A stretch of DNA of 64,000 bases. It comes from Verrucomicrobiota bacterium. Lineage in GTDB: Bacteria > Verrucomicrobiota > Verrucomicrobiia > Chthoniobacterales > UBA6821. Positions 10,237-33,951 of the stretch are shown one piece after another; the stretch's first letter is position 1; each line of letters opens with the position of its first letter. The notes beneath the pieces are model-generated. The model saw only the letters and a program-made list of their open reading frames with translations. It was not told the origin of the DNA and ran no database searches. The position numbers and the translations under genes were made by a program. The stretch covers positions 1-64,000 of the forward strand of contig JAIOPL010000004.1 of the NCBI GenBank assembly GCA_021413925.1. Direction: 5' to 3'.

Positions 10237-11796
10237 ATGTCGAAATGTTGCACCGAATCAGTTCTCTCCCGAGTGTCTGAGGTGTTCCTGCCGTTGCGCT
10301 CTATTTTTCCGCAGGTTGTTGAACGTTTTCTGCCGGCCTCCTTGGCCGCAATCATTTGCGCGGTCAATGTTTCTGCCCAGAACTTCCCCCCGCCGAATCC
10401 CTACATGGGACCGGATGGCACCTCCACCATGCATGCCAATGCGGCATCGTCAGACGCCACCGCAAATCCGGGTCCCGGGGTGGGTCCGGTCTCCTTTGTT
10501 TCCCAATCCTATGGTGCCGTCTTTGCTTCAATCCTTATGGCTAGCGATGGGATGTTGGTAAGCGTGGCGACCAAGATATTGGACCAGACACCCTATGTCT
10601 ACCTGCTGGACCCGGTGTCTTTGGCCAGTCAAGCCGAGATGAAACTAGTGAAGTCGACCACGAGCGACCTTGCCGGGGGTATCTATTCCTATCTGGACAA
10701 CAACAGCAACCTTGTCCTTGTAAACGCCAATGGTGACCTGCAACGCATCAGTCACTCTCAGCAAACCAATGGTTCGTGGCAGTTGACGGTGCAACAGTCC
10801 GTGCAGATCGGTTATCCTGATGTGGTGGGACTCACGCCAGATTATCAGGGCAATGTCTGGTTTGCTACGGCGCAGGGAGCGACTACAAACGCAGGTGCCG
10901 TGGTGGGGTATTATTCGCCTTTTTCCAAGCAAACCTTCGCCTTTCAGTTGCCTGCAGGAGAGCAGGTTGCCAACAGCATTTCCTCCTCGCCTACCGGTGT
11001 GGCCGTGGCGTCGACGGCTGCCCTCTACATGTTCAATGCCAATGGCACAAACGGCGCAGTGACCGAGAATTGGCGCACGGCCTATGACCGGGGGCCAGCC
11101 CGCAAGCCGGGTCAGTTAAGCTGGGGCACGGGGTCCACACCGTCGTTCTTCGGGCCAACCACCGGTTTTGAATATCTCACGATCACCGATAACGCGGCCC
11201 CGCAGGAGCATATGCTCGTGTTCAATGCCACAAACGGAGGTCTCATCGGATCATCCCCCTTCCTGACCTCCGGAGTGAATAGCGGGACGGAGGACGCCGC
11301 AATAGCCGTTGGCAACAGCATTTATCTGTCGAGTACTTACGGATACGTCTATCCTCCCGGTGCCGCCACCGGACCCAGCATTCCGACGAATGCCCCGTTT
11401 GTCGGTGGAATGCAGCGTGTCGACGTCCTGGCAGATGGTAGCGGTCTAACTAATGTCTGGATGAACCAGACACTGGCTTCCGCAGCGGTGCCGCGTCTCT
11501 CCACAGCCGACAATCTAATCTACTCAGTTACGTACTCAACCAATACGGGGATATATAGTTTCGTTACGGTGAATCCGGAGGACGGATCAGTGTTGAGCAG
11601 TACAGATGTTGGAACCGCCAATACGTTGCAGATGGTCGGTGTGATCGGGCCTAGCGGAGTCCTGTACCAAGGCACTGAGACTGGGCTGTTCAGCGTGACT
11701 TCAGTTCCAGAACCCTCGACCTACGCCTTGCTAGGTCTCGGTGCCTTGGCACTCTTGATCGCGTATCGTCGGAAGAGCAGGAAGAAGGCCTCCTGA
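10237..11796 (+). CDS. PEP-CTERM-anchored exported protein
   Basis: 519 residues. The N-terminus has a long basic/hydrophobic leader ending near NVSAQN, consistent with Sec export. The C-terminus (490-519) is a textbook PEP-CTERM sorting signal: VPEPSTYALLGLGALALLIAYRRKSRKK, i.e. the motif, a transmembrane helix and a basic tail, processed by exosortase-type enzymes. The body is rich in Gly, Ser, Thr, Asn and Val and has repeated strand-like stretches (GNVWFATAQGATTNAG, GVLYQGTETGLFSVTS) reminiscent of a beta-propeller; no enzyme motif is seen. It is flanked by the comM fragment and intact comM, i.e. it is cargo of an insertion. No exosortase gene is in the window. Confidence 0.82.
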   Translation: MSKCCTESVLSRVSEVFLPLRSIFPQVVERFLPASLAAIICAVNVSAQNFPPPNPYMGPDGTSTMHANAASSDATANPGPGVGPVSFVSQSYGAVFASILMASDGMLVSVATKILDQTPYVYLLDPVSLASQAEMKLVKSTTSDLAGGIYSYLDNNSNLVLVNANGDLQRISHSQQTNGSWQLTVQQSVQIGYPDVVGLTPDYQGNVWFATAQGATTNAGAVVGYYSPFSKQTFAFQLPAGEQVANSISSSPTGVAVASTAALYMFNANGTNGAVTENWRTAYDRGPARKPGQLSWGTGSTPSFFGPTTGFEYLTITDNAAPQEHMLVFNATNGGLIGSSPFLTSGVNSGTEDAAIAVGNSIYLSSTYGYVYPPGAATGPSIPTNAPFVGGMQRVDVLADGSGLTNVWMNQTLASAAVPRLSTADNLIYSVTYSTNTGIYSFVTVNPEDGSVLSSTDVGTANTLQMVGVIGPSGVLYQGTETGLFSVTSVPEPSTYALLGLGALALLIAYRRKSRKKAS

Positions 11797-16765: not shown

Positions 16766-17308
16766 TCACTCTCCGGCGACCATGGCCAGGACCCGTTCTG
16801 CCTGCTTGAGGTGGAGTCCGAGGTGGAATCCGAACATGCAATGCCACTTGTGGGCATCGAAAGATCCGAAAACGGAGTGGGGAGTCTCAGCTGTACCACG
16901 GAGCGGAGGCAATGTCCCAATCATGATCAGATAGTCGTCGATTGATTGGCGGAAGGCCTCCACCTGCTCGGGGCCTGATAGTCCCTCGGGGAGTACGTCG
17001 GTCTTCGGATTGATCGGGTGCTCTGGTGTCGGATCCTTACCCAGAGACAGTTGCCGGACATTTCGTTGGATCATCCCGTTTACGAACGCATTGTGCTCAA
17101 GGATTTGGAAAAAGGACCATCCCCGCATCTCCGGGTCGACTCCGATCATCGTGGGAACTGTGACCGGTTTGGCACCATTCTCGGATTCCATCTGCTTCGC
17201 AAGTTTCAGATAGGAGCCAGCATGGGTGCGGATGATCTGCGAGGCCCTCTTCCGTGAGGTCAGGAGGAACTTAGTCCTGATTACGGTTCTTATGATGGGA
17301 TTGCTCAT
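16766..17308 (-). CDS. DinB-like/DUF1569 protein
   Basis: 180 residues, all-helical. The ILEHNAFVNGMI helix and the C-terminal HKWHCMFGFHLGLHLKQAERVL helix supply the His residues typical of the DinB/YfiT metal-binding four-helix bundle; MRGWSFFQ fits DUF1569. Members are thiol transferases or of unknown function. It follows recD2's start by 38 bases on the same strand but is transcribed first. An oddity is the basic N-terminus TVIRTKFLLTSRKRASQIIRTHAG. Confidence 0.75.
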   Translation of the reverse strand: MSNPIIRTVIRTKFLLTSRKRASQIIRTHAGSYLKLAKQMESENGAKPVTVPTMIGVDPEMRGWSFFQILEHNAFVNGMIQRNVRQLSLGKDPTPEHPINPKTDVLPEGLSGPEQVEAFRQSIDDYLIMIGTLPPLRGTAETPHSVFGSFDAHKWHCMFGFHLGLHLKQAERVLAMVAGE

Positions 17309-19117: not shown

Positions 19118-20182
19118 TCACCCCTTCCTCACAATCCCTGAGATCATCACGTCTGATCCGATCTTGGTGTAGGTGACATCCTTCAGTTGGGTAGGGAAGA
19201 TTCGGCCGCTGACGGCGGGGACGCTTCCGCCTTGAATCACCGGGGCGAGGAAGAAGCGGACTTCGTCGACAAGCTTGCGCCTGAAGGCTTCTCCAAGCGT
19301 TTGTCCGCCACCCTCGATCAGGACGCTGGAGATGCCACACTTGCCAAGTTCCTGCAGGACCTTCCGGAGCGTCATGCTGCTGAAGACCAGTGTGCGGGCG
19401 CGGTGGGTGTCGGTGAGGAGTTTGGATTTCTTGGGGATCTTGCCGGTGCGTGACCAGACGACTCTCCATGGTTGGGGATGACCTTTTGGAAGTTTGATGC
19501 CTCGGATGGTGAGGGAGGGATCATCGGTACGGACGGTGCCTGCTCCGATAAGGATTGCCTCGACGGAGGCCCTGAGGCTCATGGCTTCTCTGCGACTGGC
19601 TGCCGAGGTGATCCATCTCCGATGGGGAGGTGAGTCGATCCGTCCGTCGAGTGACATCCCCGCCTTAGCGATGACCCAGGGAAGGCCTGTAGAGGCACGG
19701 TGGTTCCAATGGGAGTTTAACGTGGCACATTCCCTTGAGAGGATCCCCTCGGTCACTTTGATGCCGGCCTTGCTGAGAATCTTTGCCGCCCGTCCCTTGT
19801 GTCGTTTGTCGGGGTCGGTGGCGCCGTAGACGACTCGTGAGATTCCTGCCCCGATAATCGCCTCCGTGCATGGTGGGGTCTTCCCGTGGGAGGAGCAGGG
19901 TTCCAGTGTGACGTAGAGGGTCGCGTCCGCAAGCGGACGAGGCTGAAGGCTGGAGGCTGAAGGCTGAAGGGGAAAATCGGAAATCAGTTTTCTGATGGCC
20001 TCGATCTCTGCGTGGGGGAGGCCTGCGGCATGGTGGTATCCCTTGGCGATGACTCTACCGTTTTTCACAATCACTGCTCCAACGGCCGGATTCGGAGCTG
20101 TCAGTCCTTGGGCCTTCGTTGCTTCCTGAATCGCCAGACGCATGAAGCGTTCGTCGGATTTGAGGTCAAGTTGCGAGGTCAT
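19118..20182 (-). CDS. ribD: Bifunctional riboflavin biosynthesis protein RibD
   Basis: 354 residues from MTSQLDLKSDERFMRLAIQEA; a longer frame to 20224 exists but the family starts here. N-terminal deaminase: zinc ligands in GLPHAEIEAI and PCSSHGKTPPC, with TAPNPAVGAVIV. C-terminal reductase: KAGMSLDGRID, SVEAILIGAGTVRTDDPSLTIR, LIEGGGQTLGEAF. It performs the second and third steps of riboflavin synthesis. Just before LYVTLEPC there is an insertion (ISDFPLQPSASSLQPRPLADA) coded by a GGCTGAA repeat. The last ~115 bases are duplicated at 18095-18213. Confidence 0.95.
   Translation of the reverse strand: MTSQLDLKSDERFMRLAIQEATKAQGLTAPNPAVGAVIVKNGRVIAKGYHHAAGLPHAEIEAIRKLISDFPLQPSASSLQPRPLADATLYVTLEPCSSHGKTPPCTEAIIGAGISRVVYGATDPDKRHKGRAAKILSKAGIKVTEGILSRECATLNSHWNHRASTGLPWVIAKAGMSLDGRIDSPPHRRWITSAASRREAMSLRASVEAILIGAGTVRTDDPSLTIRGIKLPKGHPQPWRVVWSRTGKIPKKSKLLTDTHRARTLVFSSMTLRKVLQELGKCGISSVLIEGGGQTLGEAFRRKLVDEVRFFLAPVIQGGSVPAVSGRIFPTQLKDVTYTKIGSDVMISGIVRKG
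19941..19972. repeat. GGCTGAA simple repeat inside ribD
   Basis: GGCTGAAGGCTGGAGGCTGA followed by AGGCTGAAGG runs in frame through ribD and encodes LQPSASSLQP on the minus strand. The same unit fills the spacer between holA and uvrB (35364-35399). It lies in a loop just before the zinc-binding motif, where extra residues can be tolerated. Confidence 0.75.
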
Positions 20183-20199
20183 GGTGGTTGGAAATATTC

Positions 20200-20320
20200 C
20201 CGCTGAGGCGCAGAGACGCAGCAACGACCGGGATAGCCAAAACAGGGAAACAGGGATGGAGATGCATGGAAGTTTTTTTTACAGGGATGAAGGGGATAAA
20301 ATGGGGGGCACAACCGAGAC
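20200..20320. repeat. Low-complexity spacer repeats upstream of ribD
   Basis: Short degenerate repeats follow one another: GAGGCGCAGAGACGCAGC, then ACAGGGAAACAGGGATGGAGATG, then ACAGGGATGAAGGGGATAAAA. They belong to the same class of drifting tandem repeats as the other spacers. The run of eight T at about 20273 lies between them. Confidence 0.5.
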
Positions 20321-20360
20321 CTTGTTTCTGAGGCCAATCTGAGTCAGATCCCCGGCTTGT

Positions 20361-20690
20361 CCAACCCAGTTGGCATGGGCTTTGCAAAGCAAAGCCGGTT
20401 GCCTTTGGGATCATCTTTACAAGCTCACTTGCAAGAGTGATGCCAAGGCCAACCGTAGCGAAGTTCTGCCTGGCAGCAACTTCTACAATGCCATTCTTAC
20501 TATCCCTTTGCCGGCACTTGCTACCCGGCAAGCAGTACCGCCCTTCCGGGTCACGCATTCGCGTGAACTTCCGCGCCGCTTCCCAGCGGTTTGGTTCATC
20601 TCCTTCATCCCTGTGCGTAAATCATTTCTCTACCTCTACGTTTGCTTGCCTGGCCTCGGTCTGATGACCTGCGGTGCAGCTGCACCTCCG
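20361..20690. ncRNA. Hairpin-rich non-coding stretch, possible structured RNA or repeat element
   Basis: No gene can be supported, but at least seven stems follow each other: CCAAC/GTTGG (20361-20373), GGCTTTG/CAAAGCC (20378-20396), TCACT/AGTGA (20425-20440), GAAGTTCTGC/GCAGcAACTTC (20460-20483), TTGCCGG/CCGGCAA (20508-20531), TCACGC/GCGTGA with loop ATTC (20551-20566), CCGCT/AGCGG with loop TCCC (20576-20589), and the palindrome GGTGCAGCTGCACC (20673-20686). TTGGCAT (20370-20376) can also pair with ATGCCAA (20440-20446). I recognise no known RNA family; strand is undecided. It could instead be a multicopy palindromic repeat. Confidence 0.45.
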
Positions 20691-20764
20691 CTTGAGAAGG
20701 ATTCTTTGATTTCATCCTGTATTTCGTTCTTTAGGTCGGGGTTGCCTTTGAACGATCCTAGGGA

Positions 20765-21895
20765 ATGGACACTAAAGAAAACAGCTCCGAGACATCCTCT
20801 GCCCCAAAAATCAAAACGGGCCAGGAGATCGATGTGGAAATCAATGACATCGGCTTCGGCGGCAGGGGGGTCGGCCGGATCGATGGGGTGGCCTGTTTTG
20901 TGCCGGGTGTGATCGAGAAGGAAAAGGTCCGTGTCAAAATCGCCAAGGTGAAGTCACGCATGATGGAGGCCTGGCTGCTTGAAGTGCTTGAGCCCTCACC
21001 TTACCGGGTCGAGCCTCCGTGTCCTGTGTTCCTCAAATGCGGTGGTTGCTCCTACCAGCATATCGACTATCCCCATCAGCTGCAGATTAAGGAGACTCAG
21101 CTCCGCGAGGCCCTGCGCAGGCTTGGGGGCCTAAGCGAACCACCTGTACTGCCGATGATCGCATCGCCAGAGCCCTACGGCTACCGTAACCGGATCGCCG
21201 TCCATGTGCGTGACGGGAATGTTGGATTCTTTGCCGAGGGATCGAACCGCGTGATTCCGGTGAAGAAGTGTCTGATCGCTTCGCCCGAGGTTGATCTGGG
21301 ATTCCAGGATCTGCTCAAGGAGCGCCCGCGTGACGGCGACTACCTTATCGGTGAGAAGAAGCGCTATGGGGGCTTTCGCCAGGTGAACAATGCCGTGGCT
21401 GAGATTCTGAAAGAGACAGTCCGGGAAGCCGTCAGACCTTCTGGCGAGGCCGCTCCGATCGCCGGATTGCTTGTGGATGCCTATTGCGGAGCCGGGTTCT
21501 TTGCCCATGAGTTGCAGGAGCTCTTCACGAAGGTGATCGGCATCGAGCGCTCGATCGCCTCGGTGGCGATGGCGAGCCGTCAGGCCGCCGAGAACGAGGA
21601 GTATCTGGCGGGTGATGTGGAGCTGAAGTTGAGTGAGGCGCTGGGAGCCGGCAAGCCTGAGGAGACCGTCCTCCTGCTGGATCCCCCCTCTGAGGGGCTT
21701 GCTGAATTGGCCATGGAAGCCATTTTGCAAAATCCTCCTGCGCGCATTGTCTATGTATCGTGTAATCCGGCAACGCTTGCCCGCGATGCCAAGCGACTGG
21801 CCGGCAACTATCGTCTCGTTCAGGTGACCCCGCTCGATATGTTTCCTCAGACGGCCGAGATTGAGTCGGTTTCCGTTTTTAAACTCATTCCATGA
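20765..21895 (+). CDS. TrmA/RlmCD-family RNA uracil-C5 methyltransferase
   Basis: 376 residues. An N-terminal TRAM domain (TGQEIDVEINDIGFGGRGVGRIDG) is followed by the Fe-S cluster Cys set CPVFLKCGGC (Cys86, Cys92, Cys95) with the fourth Cys in VIPVKKCLI. The SAM motif is LLVDAYCGAGFFA, and the catalytic Cys lies in IVYVSCNPATLARD. It methylates U to m5U in rRNA or tRNA; which site is not decidable. It is somewhat shorter than E. coli RlmD (433). Its stop overlaps the next gene's start (ATGA). Confidence 0.92.
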   Translation: MDTKENSSETSSAPKIKTGQEIDVEINDIGFGGRGVGRIDGVACFVPGVIEKEKVRVKIAKVKSRMMEAWLLEVLEPSPYRVEPPCPVFLKCGGCSYQHIDYPHQLQIKETQLREALRRLGGLSEPPVLPMIASPEPYGYRNRIAVHVRDGNVGFFAEGSNRVIPVKKCLIASPEVDLGFQDLLKERPRDGDYLIGEKKRYGGFRQVNNAVAEILKETVREAVRPSGEAAPIAGLLVDAYCGAGFFAHELQELFTKVIGIERSIASVAMASRQAAENEEYLAGDVELKLSEALGAGKPEETVLLLDPPSEGLAELAMEAILQNPPARIVYVSCNPATLARDAKRLAGNYRLVQVTPLDMFPQTAEIESVSVFKLIP

Positions 21896-29578: not shown

Positions 29579-29590
29579 TAAGTATGAGGG

Positions 29591-29688
29591 ATGAATGATG
29601 AAGTATGAAGTATGAAGGGAGTCATTTTGCGATGATCTCCAACGTCTCTTCAGATTAATTTCATACTTCATACTTCTGACTTCATAAT
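29591..29688. repeat. Inverted simple repeat before ileS
   Basis: GAAGTATGAAGTATGAA (29600-29616) is repeated in perfect inverted form at 29660-29676, separated by 43 bases that include TTCAGATTAATTT. It ends about 20 bases before the ileS start. The arms are tandem GAAGTAT units like those before uvrB. The stem could form in the ileS leader. Confidence 0.8.
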
Positions 29689-29697
29689 TTTTCCATC

Positions 29698-32457
29698 ATG
29701 TCCCGCTACAAAGATACCGTTCTTCTTCCAAAGACCCCCTTCCCGATGAAGGCGGGACTGGCCCAGCGCGAACCGGAGCTTCTGGCCAAGTGGGAGAAAG
29801 AGGGCCTCTACGCTTCCATTCAGAAGGCACGCGAGGGATCGCCGAAGTACGTGCTCCATGATGGCCCTCCGTTTGCGAACGGGGATGTCCATATGGGGAC
29901 CGCCCTGAACAAGGTGCTCAAGGATCTTGTTGTCAAATCGAAGACGATGGCTGGATTTCAGGCCCCCTTTATTCCGGGATGGGATTGTCACGGTCTGCCG
30001 ATCGAGTTCCGCGTGGTGAAGTCCTCAGCCGGCCTAACACCGCTACAGGTCCGTCAGAAATCCGAGGAGTATGCCCGCAAGTTCATCGACATCCAGCGGA
30101 CCCAGTTCCGCAGGCTCGGAGTCTTCGGGGACTGGGAGCATCCTTACCTGACACTCGATCCTTCGTACGAGGCGGCGATCATCCGTTCCTTCGGCCGCAT
30201 GGTCGAGAAGGGGCTGGTCTACCGGAGCAAGAAGCCGGTCCTCTGGAGCACCGGTGCCCAGACAGCCCTGGCAGAGGCCGAGGTCGAATATCAGGATAAG
30301 ACCTCCCCGGCGATTTTCGTGAAGTTTGTTATCGAGACTCATGAGGCTGCATCGGCCGGTCTTCCGACAGACAAGCCTCTCTCAGTCGTCATCTGGACGA
30401 CCACTCCCTGGACACTGCCTGCGAATCTCGCGATCGCTGTCCATGCCGAATTCGACTATGTGCTGCTCGAGAATGCCTCGGAGCGCCTGATCGTGGCAGC
30501 GGGGCTTTCGGACAAGTTCAAGGAGTCAACCGGATTGGAGCTTTCCCAGCATGGTGAGGCCCGCAAGGGAGCCACGCTCGAGGGGATTAAAGCACGTCAT
30601 CCCTTCTTGGACAGGATTTCGACAATTCACACCGCAGAGTTCGTGACGCTCGAGACCGGCAGCGGTTGCGTTCATATCGCTCCCGGTCACGGTGATGATG
30701 ATTACCAGCTTGGACGGAGAGTCGGCCTCGAACTCCTTTCTCCCGTGGATGACTACGGTAAGTTCACCGAGGAGTGTGGCGTTCCATCGCTGGTCGGGCA
30801 GAATGTCTTTGAGGGCAACGAGGAGGTGATCCGGATTCTCGCTGAGAAGAATGCCCTGATGGGTCGTCAGGACTACCAACATAGCTATCCCCATTGCTGG
30901 CGCTCCAAGACCCCGATTCTTTTCCGTGCTGTGGAGCAGTTCTTTATTCGTATCGACGCGCTGCGCGAGACCGCTCTCAAGGAAATCGACGCCACGAATT
31001 GGATCCCGCATTGGGGACGCAATCGCATCCGCGGAACGGTCGAATCACGTCCTGACTGGTGTATTTCCCGCCAGCGTAGTTGGGGAGTTCCTCTTCCTGC
31101 TTTCTATACGCCCGAAGGGGAGCCGATCCTGGATCCTGCTGTCATCGCGAAGGTCTCCGAGGTGGTGGCTGAGAGGGGATCGAACGCCTGGTTCTCCCTG
31201 GATGATGCCGAGTGGTGCCGCCTGACCGGGGCTCCTGTCGGATCAGTTCGTCGCAATGATACCCTCGATGTCTGGCTCGACAGTGGAGTGAGCCATGAGG
31301 CTGTTCTGCGTGGACGTCCGGAACTTCAGTTTCCTGCCGATCTCTATCTCGAGGCGACGGACCAGCATCGCGGGTGGTTCCAGTCCTCGCTCATGACCTC
31401 GGTGGCATTGAATGAGAAGGCTCCCTACAAGACCGTCCTGACCCATGGTTTCGTGGTCGATGTCGATACACGCCAGAAGATCTCGAAGTCTAATCAGGGA
31501 CAGGGAGGTTATCAGAAGCCGACCGAGGCCGATCACTTTGTGAAGACCTATGGTGCCGATATCGTCCGACTCTGGGCTAGCAGTGTCCAGTTTACCGACG
31601 ATGTTCCCTTCTCCGAGGAGATCTTCGCGCGTCTCACCGATTCCTATCGGAGGATCCGAAATACACTCCGCATCCTGCTTGCCAACCTGGCCGACTACGA
31701 TGTTGCGGCACCTGTCTTGGAACCGACGTTAATCGACCGATGGATCCTGGCTCGACTGCAGGAGACAGTGAACACCTGCCGCAAAGCCTACGATGAGCTG
31801 GCCTTCCAGAAGGCATATCAGGCGATCACCCAGTTCTGCGCTGTGGAACTGAGCAGTATCTACGTCGATGTGACCAAAGACCGTCTCTACTGCGATAGCG
31901 TTTCCTCGCCCCGTCGCCGGGCCACCCAGGCTGTAATGGCCAAGGTTTTTGAGGATTTGTGCCGCCTGCTTGCCCCGGTTCTTGTCTTCACTGCCGAGGA
32001 GGCATGGGGTCACTTCCGGACCGAAGGTTCCGTGCATATGGAGCTCTTTCCTGAGGAGAAGGCTCCCGATCAGGAAATCCTGACGCGCTTCGAGGCACTC
32101 CTTGCACTACGCGCTGATATCTCCCAGGCATTGGAAAAGGCTCAGCGCGACGGGATGATTGGTAAGCCTCTTGAGGCCACGGTCGCTGTCACTACGGAGG
32201 ATTCTTTGGTGCTGAGCGCCGTTGAAGAAGGTGAGAACAACGGTCTTGCCGAGATCGAGGAGTTTTTGATCCTGAGCAATCTCTCCATCTCCAAGGGAGA
32301 GAAAGGAATTGTGATCGGCAAGAGCACCGCCGAGAAATGTGAGCGTTGCTGGCGTCATCGTGATGAAGTGGGTTCCCATGCAACTCATCCGACGCTCTGC
32401 GGGCGCTGCGTAGATGCGGTGGAAGCCTTGGGTGTCTCACCGTCTGTTTCCGCATGA
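29698..32457 (+). CDS. ileS: Isoleucyl-tRNA synthetase
   Basis: 919 residues. The class I signature is present as HMGT (65-68) within GPPFANGDVHMGTALNKVLKD, and the second as KISKS. Editing-domain motifs TTPWTLPANLAIAV and the tryptophan-rich TDQHRGWFQSS are normal. A C-terminal zinc finger CERCWRHRDEVGSHATHPTLCGRC follows, as in bacterial IleS. It charges tRNA-Ile with isoleucine. It overlaps lspA by 4 bases (ATGA), making an ileS-lspA-DUF5069 operon. Confidence 0.98.
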   Translation: MSRYKDTVLLPKTPFPMKAGLAQREPELLAKWEKEGLYASIQKAREGSPKYVLHDGPPFANGDVHMGTALNKVLKDLVVKSKTMAGFQAPFIPGWDCHGLPIEFRVVKSSAGLTPLQVRQKSEEYARKFIDIQRTQFRRLGVFGDWEHPYLTLDPSYEAAIIRSFGRMVEKGLVYRSKKPVLWSTGAQTALAEAEVEYQDKTSPAIFVKFVIETHEAASAGLPTDKPLSVVIWTTTPWTLPANLAIAVHAEFDYVLLENASERLIVAAGLSDKFKESTGLELSQHGEARKGATLEGIKARHPFLDRISTIHTAEFVTLETGSGCVHIAPGHGDDDYQLGRRVGLELLSPVDDYGKFTEECGVPSLVGQNVFEGNEEVIRILAEKNALMGRQDYQHSYPHCWRSKTPILFRAVEQFFIRIDALRETALKEIDATNWIPHWGRNRIRGTVESRPDWCISRQRSWGVPLPAFYTPEGEPILDPAVIAKVSEVVAERGSNAWFSLDDAEWCRLTGAPVGSVRRNDTLDVWLDSGVSHEAVLRGRPELQFPADLYLEATDQHRGWFQSSLMTSVALNEKAPYKTVLTHGFVVDVDTRQKISKSNQGQGGYQKPTEADHFVKTYGADIVRLWASSVQFTDDVPFSEEIFARLTDSYRRIRNTLRILLANLADYDVAAPVLEPTLIDRWILARLQETVNTCRKAYDELAFQKAYQAITQFCAVELSSIYVDVTKDRLYCDSVSSPRRRATQAVMAKVFEDLCRLLAPVLVFTAEEAWGHFRTEGSVHMELFPEEKAPDQEILTRFEALLALRADISQALEKAQRDGMIGKPLEATVAVTTEDSLVLSAVEEGENNGLAEIEEFLILSNLSISKGEKGIVIGKSTAEKCERCWRHRDEVGSHATHPTLCGRCVDAVEALGVSPSVSA

Positions 32458-32915: not shown

Positions 32916-33343
32916 GCAACACACTTCCTGTCAGTCCCTACGACACCACTCACGGACTCGTCTATTTCCCCCGGATGATCGATAAGATACGCCTGCATGC
33001 CTCCGGTCAGCTGGGTTCCGATTATGTGCCGAACCTTGGCAAGGGATTCGATGTGCGCTGCTGCTCTCTTCTCGGAGTTGGCTATGACGCGTTAGTCAAG
33101 GCCGTGGGCTCTTCCATGAATGATGAGCAGGCTTGGGAGTGGGTCTTGCAGAATGGCAAGGCTCCAAGCGAAGAGCAGATTGAAGTCTGGAACGGCTTCA
33201 TGACACGCCGCGGATGGAATGATGACCTGGTTGAGATGCTTGAAAAACGCAAGAAGGAGGGCGGTTTTGAGAGCCGCGCCGATATCCGGACGATGTTCGA
33301 CTATATCGATGCCGACGAGGGGAGAGCGATCAGATCAAACTGA
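32912..33343 (+). CDS. DUF5069 protein, copy 2
   Basis: 143 residues. LVYFPRMIDKIRLHASGQLG is the typical DUF5069 start, followed by GFDVRCCSLLGVGYDALVKAV, DEQAWEWVLQNGK and DIRTMFDYIDADEGR. Function unknown; soluble, with no signal peptide. It overlaps the lspA stop by 4 bases, so it is translated with ileS and lspA. It lies tail to tail with copy 3, the two separated only by a repeat block. Confidence 0.88.
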   Translation: MSNTLPVSPYDTTHGLVYFPRMIDKIRLHASGQLGSDYVPNLGKGFDVRCCSLLGVGYDALVKAVGSSMNDEQAWEWVLQNGKAPSEEQIEVWNGFMTRRGWNDDLVEMLEKRKKEGGFESRADIRTMFDYIDADEGRAIRSN

Positions 33344-33438
33344 TCGCCGAAACCTGAAACCTGAGACCTGAGACCTGAGACCTGAATCGGAGGTGGTCGA
33401 GAAGTCGACAATACTCAGGTTTCAAGTTTCAGGTCTCA
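33326..33438. repeat. Hairpin and inverted CCTGAGA repeats between two DUF5069 genes
   Basis: GCGATCAG/CTGATCGC (33326-33347) forms a hairpin over the stop of copy 2. Then AACCTGA units are repeated in tandem with CCTGAGA (33351-33386), and CTCAGGTTTC...TTTCAGGTCTCA (33414-33438) is the same unit inverted, reaching the stop codon of copy 3. The whole 92-base spacer is repeat. It may stop transcription in both directions. Confidence 0.75.
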
Positions 33439-33951
33439 TCCTTTTCTGACATAGCTCAGGATTTTTTCCTGATCGCCATCCGACGCCCAGACGATCCTAA
33501 GGAAGTCAGCCGGATGGATATCGTGTTCCTTCAGGAAGCGACGATCCCCTCCGCAGCAGTACATGATTTCGTGGCAGAGGCCGCCCTCGAGGAAGCATTG
33601 TGCCTTCTTGATAATGCGGGGAAGCCATGGGATCCCAGCAAGCGCTTCGGGCTTTGGAGGGAGTGAATCCGCCTCGGTGACTACAGAATTGGTGATGCCA
33701 TGCTGATGATAGAGAAAGTAATCGCGCCTGGCAGCGGCCAAAAGCAGGACAGTGTTCCAATCGGGCTCGCCAGCCCCATTCATATCTTCAGCGTAATCGT
33801 AGAGATTTATCGGACGCAGGCCGATCGAAGTGAGAAAGGCGGTTTCTTCGGGCGAGAAGTAGGAATCCAGTTCCCTGTTTCCCTCTTTGTTGAGTGCGAC
33901 GGCCTTGTCGTAGATTTCGCGGAGTTTTTGTGTCCAGAGATAAGAACTCAT
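33436..33951 (-). CDS. DUF5069 protein, copy 3, with N-terminal extension
   Basis: 171 residues. The C-terminal half (IPWLPRIIKKAQCFLEGGLCHEIMYCCGGDRRFLKEHDIHPADFLRIVWASDGDQEKILSYVRKG) follows the DUF5069 plan seen in copies 1 and 2. The first ~95 residues (MSSYLWTQKLREIYDKAVALNKEGNRELDSYFSPEETAFLTSIGLRPINLYDYAED...) are an extra all-helical domain with a DYFLYHQHG segment. Three Cys cluster in CHEIMYCCGG. Role unknown. It follows dodecin on the minus strand, probably in the holA-dodecin unit. Confidence 0.78.
   Translation of the reverse strand: MSSYLWTQKLREIYDKAVALNKEGNRELDSYFSPEETAFLTSIGLRPINLYDYAEDMNGAGEPDWNTVLLLAAARRDYFLYHQHGITNSVVTEADSLPPKPEALAGIPWLPRIIKKAQCFLEGGLCHEIMYCCGGDRRFLKEHDIHPADFLRIVWASDGDQEKILSYVRKG

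Follow-up and report, generated by a model that had tools for sequence, protein, structure and literature searches.

The hairpin-rich core of the spacer between the ribD-like gene and the tRNA (uracil-5-) methyltransferase-like gene is probably a hairpin-based mobile element of about 86 bp that does not move autonomously, carries four hairpins and inserts 5' of the dinucleotide TT. The element is dispersed in many copies with conserved stems, is shared between chromosomes and phages, has a TT at its junction, and occurs at one site for which both the occupied and the empty state can be compared. Its position and that of the surrounding features are given in Table 1 for the window, i.e. the whole stretch of 64,000 nucleotides that was analysed.

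The eight stems that the original prediction had counted in 330 bases (20361-20690) are borne out as eight non-overlapping perfect hairpins (stem of at least 5, loop of 3-12); this count is reached in 1 of 386 windows of 330 nt (mean 2.8) and in 0 of 300 mononucleotide shuffles (mean 2.1). The fold of the region as a whole is modest (z = -1.55 as RNA and -3.58 as DNA), and by the mean energy of both strands the core ranks 244th among 6391 windows of 90 nt, or 542nd after GC correction; folding energy by itself thus not being extreme, the case is carried by the number of stems and by the copies found elsewhere. The open frames had been judged to have no supportable product, and the three largest across the hairpin region indeed have no Pfam match at E<=1; likewise, in agreement with the absence of a recognizable RNA family, Rfam 15 yields no match at gathering score in the window and 3 chance-level matches in 20100-20800.

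Table 1. Features of the ribD/trmA spacer and its flanking genes (window coordinates).
Feature	Position	Strand	Remarks
ribD-like gene	19118..20224	-	deaminase and RibD_C domains; likely start ATG near 20181-20183
Left outer repeat (GAGGCGCAGAGACGCAG...)	20183..20260	+	left edge of the block missing from G009 and G012
Dispersed ACAGGGATGAAGGGGATAAAATGGG arm	20281..20305	+	
Eight perfect hairpins	20361-20373, 20378-20396, 20425-20440, 20460-20483, 20508-20531, 20551-20566, 20576-20589, 20673-20686		
Segment A	20366..20507		separate dispersed repeat of ~142 nt; four of the eight perfect hairpins
Four-hairpin mobile element (probable), window copy	20508..20594	- (modelled strand)	plus-strand ends TTGCC...GTTTGG
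Hairpin H1	20512..20540	-	GGCAC-nnn-CTTGCC, loop usually GGGA on minus strand
Hairpin H2	20541..20550	-	CCC, short loop, GGG
Hairpin H3	20551..20566	-	most sequence-variable; pairing kept through compensatory change
Hairpin H4	20571..20594	-	conserved AA/GC internal loop, GGGA loop
TTC junction trinucleotide, right side	20595..20597	+	
Inverted counterpart of ACAGGGATGAAGGGGATAAAATGGG arm (ATCTCCTTCATCCCTGT)	20598..20616	+	copy in L010
Right outer repeat, CTCTGCG/CGCAGAG type	20634..20707	+	common to L010, L012 and the G001 orthologous spacer
TRAM / tRNA (uracil-5-) methyltransferase-like gene	20765..21895	+	

The block 20183-20707 is made up of dispersed repeats, nested in one another as a mosaic, and is not one large RNA. 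Used as a query against the host genome, 20340-20710 returns 11 other places, which match different parts of it and thereby reveal the mosaic; the parts of the block are outer repeats of the CGCAGAG type, inverted ACAGGGATGAAGG arms, segment A and the four-hairpin element. Because the eight hairpins are divided among repeats with separate distributions, there is no support for the proposal of one large structured RNA. Segment A is found at 2 places in its own genome (the window included) and in 12 matches in G006, with no match in the 14 other genomes among the 16 of the genus, and thus has a history of its own. The TTGGCAT/ATGCCAA pair, proposed to enclose two of the hairpins, is present in the window but not conserved, as the other copies of segment A read differently there. 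One minus-strand frame of segment A looked protein-like between two copies (by eye) and was discarded, since other copies carry indels.

The orthologous ribD/trmA spacers of G012 and G009, whose methyltransferase proteins are 97% and 93% identical to that of the window, are without everything from about 20183 to 20707. The orthologous spacer of G001 keeps the outer repeats and is missing the four-hairpin core, so the whole block of the window need not be a recent gain. The two genomes G006 and G000 differ 3' of an RND-efflux-like gene (named by eye) that is the same in both (L002/L058): G006 has segment A and the four-hairpin element between inverted ACAGGGATGAAGG arms, whereas G000 has segment A in reversed orientation, without the four-hairpin element.

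The element itself consists of four hairpins in series over ~86 nt, with the ends TTGAY...GCTTGG and no terminal inverted repeats. The covariance model R1, built from a structure-free MAFFT alignment of ten copies that BLAST had found, scores the window copy at 95.4 bits (20508-20597). The covariation check called for in the original prediction is positive: in the ten-copy alignment 14 of the 27 pairs show two-sided changes and 93.9% of the cells pair, and among 123 distinct copies compensatory changes occur at all 27 pairs, with 95.9% of 3187 cells pairing against 74.3% in shuffles (reached in 0 of 500); as the larger alignment was fitted to the model, it is the independent ten-copy result that matters. 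On the modelled strand the loop is GGGA in 75 of 123 copies for H4 and in 80 for H1, and several unpaired bases are conserved; the tag before H3 is GTAG in 41 of 123 and GAAG in 39, with other tags in the rest. G-T mismatches outnumber A-C mismatches 64 to 26 in the model-found copies; a strand preference lacks independent support, the numbers being only 6 and 5 in the BLAST-found set, and 3 and 1, too sparse, in phage copies.

The trinucleotide that follows ...CTTGG in the 82 host copies of at least 75 bits is TTC in 68, TTG in 9, CTC in 4 and TTT in 1, so that TT stands at the right junction in 78 of 82. The flanks have a 7-base periodicity in register with the element ends, many copies lying at the edge of heptamer arrays (for example TTCAGGT, TTCATAA or CTCTCGA), and head-to-tail tandem copies abut without a spacer, the right TT of one being the TTGA of the next. 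Identical 4-nt flanks are found in 11 of 81 copies, mostly in tandem arrays, against a shuffled mean of 1.9 (maximum 6 in 1000); they could represent target duplication, a reading confounded by the heptamer arrays. On contig C12, two copies are identical over 88 nt and the similarity of their surroundings stops about 25 bp outside; elsewhere, G000 and G009 match over 612 bp (95%), beyond which their spacers are dissimilar, down to the copies of the element that they hold.

Counting copies in the genome, as had also been suggested at the outset, shows the region to be multicopy: the host genome (Spartobacteria/Chthoniobacterales, 2.40 Mb) contains 41 copies of the element at E<=2.5e-6 and 56 at E<=0.1. 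Copies are present in 15 of the 16 genomes of the genus, at 2 to 114 each, and R1 has no match in the 6 genomes of the sister genus; in the order as a whole R1 matches 31 of 213 genomes, those outside the genus (16) only weakly. The wider model R2, run on 26 selected genomes, has matches in 18, among them two genomes of the sister genus (8 and 5 places) and members of family f7, with as many as 10 places; these matches, at moderate scores only, may belong to a modular family that is older but built alike. An exact pattern for the element finds 65 stretches in GTDB genomes, all in MAGs titled Spartobacteria or Chthoniobacterales save for two contigs of one Akkermansiaceae-titled MAG. By rough gene calls, 85 of 96 copies lie outside predicted ORFs.

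Phages carry very similar copies of the element as well. In IMG/VR, the exact pattern matches 11 stretches and the phage-type right end 23, a looser form of the latter finding the same 23, and R2 gives 41 matches over 24 phage loci, many of them in near-identical contigs; the gene families that these contigs contain (portal, GpA terminase, head, tape-measure and tail) mark them as phage. Neither a phage copy nor the window region has a match in INPHARED at E<=0.01, so the phage evidence rests on the IMG/VR contigs only. Phage copies are followed by ACA, making TTTGACA, except in L289 and in a weak match in L297. The heptanucleotide occurs 48 times in 10 phage loci, of which several are related to one another, and is followed by ATG 11-18 nt on in 29 cases and exactly 13 nt on in 16, where shuffled motifs average 0.35 and the best of them, with 11, is the overlapping TTGACAT; its 9 occurrences in 105 kb of host loci and 8 in the window never stand shortly before a start. 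TTTGACA-N13-ATG is thus a leader motif that recurs before genes of these phages, whether the element is present or not (L280, L281, L284, L285, L290, L291, L295-L297, L302). One such leader is empty in L290, L295 and L296 and occupied in L302, L294 and L298, the difference being exactly 86 bp immediately 5' of TTTGACA; a second, more diverged comparison agrees. TTTGA at both edges of the 86 bp leaves an ambiguity of 5 bp, and the pair could also reflect loss by slippage between the TTTGA repeats instead of gain. Taken with the chromosomal copies, the element appears to move between chromosomes and phages.

The position of the phage copies also lends itself to a functional reading, in which the element is a structured RNA (a 5' leader, insulator or processing signal) of phage structural genes and the chromosomal copies are phage-dispersed relics. 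An ATG lies 16-20 nt past the right end in 23 of the 27 phage rows examined (positions read by eye), with the element pointing towards the gene, the four exceptions being L281 (which has a heptamer insert), L283, L289 and, in L297, a match of 27 bits; moreover, a terminator-like hairpin lies just upstream in L280 and L297, and H4 with TTGTTT itself scores as terminator-like. We nevertheless consider this reading unlikely: the leader motif and orthologous genes also occur without the element, which is therefore not needed there, the GGGA/GAA loops are on the strand opposite to the phage transcripts, and the orientation towards chromosomal genes is only weakly biased. An orientation bias among the latter, positive with a first, rough ORF caller, was dropped when a better caller gave a weaker one (right neighbour minus in 43, plus in 28).

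For a mobile element, the junctions suggest that insertion would take place directly 5' of TT on the strand reading TTGAY...GCTTGG, the targets being TTC at the edges of short tandem repeats in chromosomes and TTTGACA in phage leaders. The left end of the element itself begins with TT(GAY) and so allows a further insertion, which explains the head-to-tail tandems. Hairpins near both ends, a lack of inverted termini and a fixed junction dinucleotide fit single-strand transposition by an HUH enzyme, and we infer such a route from this arrangement: the folded single strand would be the substrate and would be cut at both ends next to AA, presumably by an HUH/Y1-type enzyme supplied in trans, as in the IS200/IS605 and REP systems. 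No copy lies beside Y1_Tnp at 30 loci from the order (about 1.5 kb a side), Y1_Tnp is present in just 2 of the 16 genomes of the genus (G000 and G006), and none of the 65 phage ORFs scanned matches a transposase or HUH family; the mobilising enzyme possibly acts in trans or has been lost. A fuller scenario can be put forward tentatively, namely that a phage-vectored, non-autonomous single-strand transposon targets the leader motif 5' of TTTGACA, where the spacing from motif to start is kept so that late genes tolerate the insertion, and that it lands in chromosomes in register with YYCNNNN heptamer arrays, possibly its own footprints; its enzyme would be new. The single Y1_Tnp gene of the host (L013, G000:C6:176932) has a different palindrome alongside; about five copies of this palindrome, GCTCCAACGGG-loop-CCCGTTGGGGGCG, surround the gene (by eye) and are probably its own REP.

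Several known systems share part of this description. REPs and BIMEs are defined by a GTAG tetranucleotide 5' of a palindrome of 20-50 nt; PATEs are palindrome-associated mini-elements derived from IS200/IS605, which have hairpins near both ends and no inverted termini and which insert next to a fixed short sequence, causing no clear duplication; integron attC sites form one element-long imperfect hairpin with GTTRRRY/RYYYAAC ends. An integron-like fold, one of the candidates originally named, is at odds with four short local hairpins in a row and with the ends TTGAC and GGTTC (by eye). Classical MITEs are likewise small, non-autonomous and dispersed, but have terminal inverted repeats, and in our element target duplication is no more than possible. 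PATEs are similar in their termini, their terminal hairpins and possibly in insertion next to a fixed short sequence; the element differs in that no parent IS was found, its hairpins begin within about 5 nt of the ends, and two extra hairpins lie between them. A REP-type multicopy repeat is the nearest of the candidates originally listed, given 41 copies and covariation, while length, tag and insertion rule differ. Like REPs and BIMEs as characterized in PMC3733652, the element is a short, intergenic, many-copy hairpin repeat, clustered and sometimes within genes; unlike them, it has four hairpins in ~86 nt, is phage-borne and has no RAYT beside its copies. In the way it works the element thus resembles REPs and PATEs, without being assigned to either.

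That the element belongs outright to a REP/BIME family of the GTAG type, with a RAYT transposase as the agent of spread, we regard as improbable. The many intergenic hairpins and the GTAG tag agree with it, as does the fact that the two genomes with Y1_Tnp are those with the most copies in the genus, and GTAG-tagged REPs are known in Verrucomicrobia, Opitutus terrae being rich in them (PMC3733652). However, the tag is inconsistent, with GAAG nearly as frequent as GTAG, the units are two to four times the length of a REP, there are 0 copies beside the 30 Y1 loci, and G009 has 44 copies yet no Y1 match. Multiplication without any enzyme, in which hairpins and short tandem repeats provoke slippage and template switching, would account for host copies in register with heptamer arrays and for a sequence with joined ends, TTGACGGCTTGTTTGA, upstream of the L281 copy (by eye), and losses between TTTGA repeats would be easy; it seems quite unlikely, as it poorly explains copies in replicons as unrelated as phages or the constant junction in phage leaders. 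A retrotransposed structured RNA, to which the compensatory stems, the conservation of unpaired bases and the GNRA-like loops might point, is nearly refuted barring a diverged reverse transcriptase, and the retron-like fold originally considered is not supported: RVT_1 has no match in the host genome and, in the genus, is present in one genome of 16, which makes movement through RNA unlikely.

Many bacterial spacers are filled with short hairpin repeats, but the way they move is known for few of them, and a literature search aimed at an element such as this mobile candidate found no description. Its transfer and its enzyme can be put to the test in this family, which offers an occupied and empty pair, a well-defined junction rule and copies on phage as well as chromosomal DNA; the family also exposes the phage leader motif TTTGACA-N13-ATG and shows a repeat becoming in-frame protein sequence. 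The latter is seen in a glycosyltransferase gene (L089:1790-3145, minus strand), where a full element and heptamer arrays lie, in frame, in the linker between its two Pfam domains. In becoming part of a protein this copy is like the Rickettsia RPE and the intragenic REPs mentioned in PMC3733652, the element differing from RPE in sequence, organism and structure.

Related modules and heptamer repeats are seen at further places. One contig has three identical 81-nt relatives in CGCAGAG-type repeats (L260:4683-4763, 10964-11044 and 17189-17269), their surrounding sequence being partly similar. In G116 of family f7 (L264:4237-10848), a polysaccharide-type locus with ABC-transporter-like genes (named by eye) has many related hairpin modules, both in these genes and between them, some apparently within ORFs. 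Within the window, the ribD-like gene contains in-frame AGGCTGA heptamer repeats at 19940-19970 (21 nt, i.e. three units or 7 codons), and inverted pairs of heptamer arrays, AGTATGA/TCATACT and ACCTGA/TCAGGT, at 29581-29700 and 33341-33460 are among its strongest GC-corrected folds.
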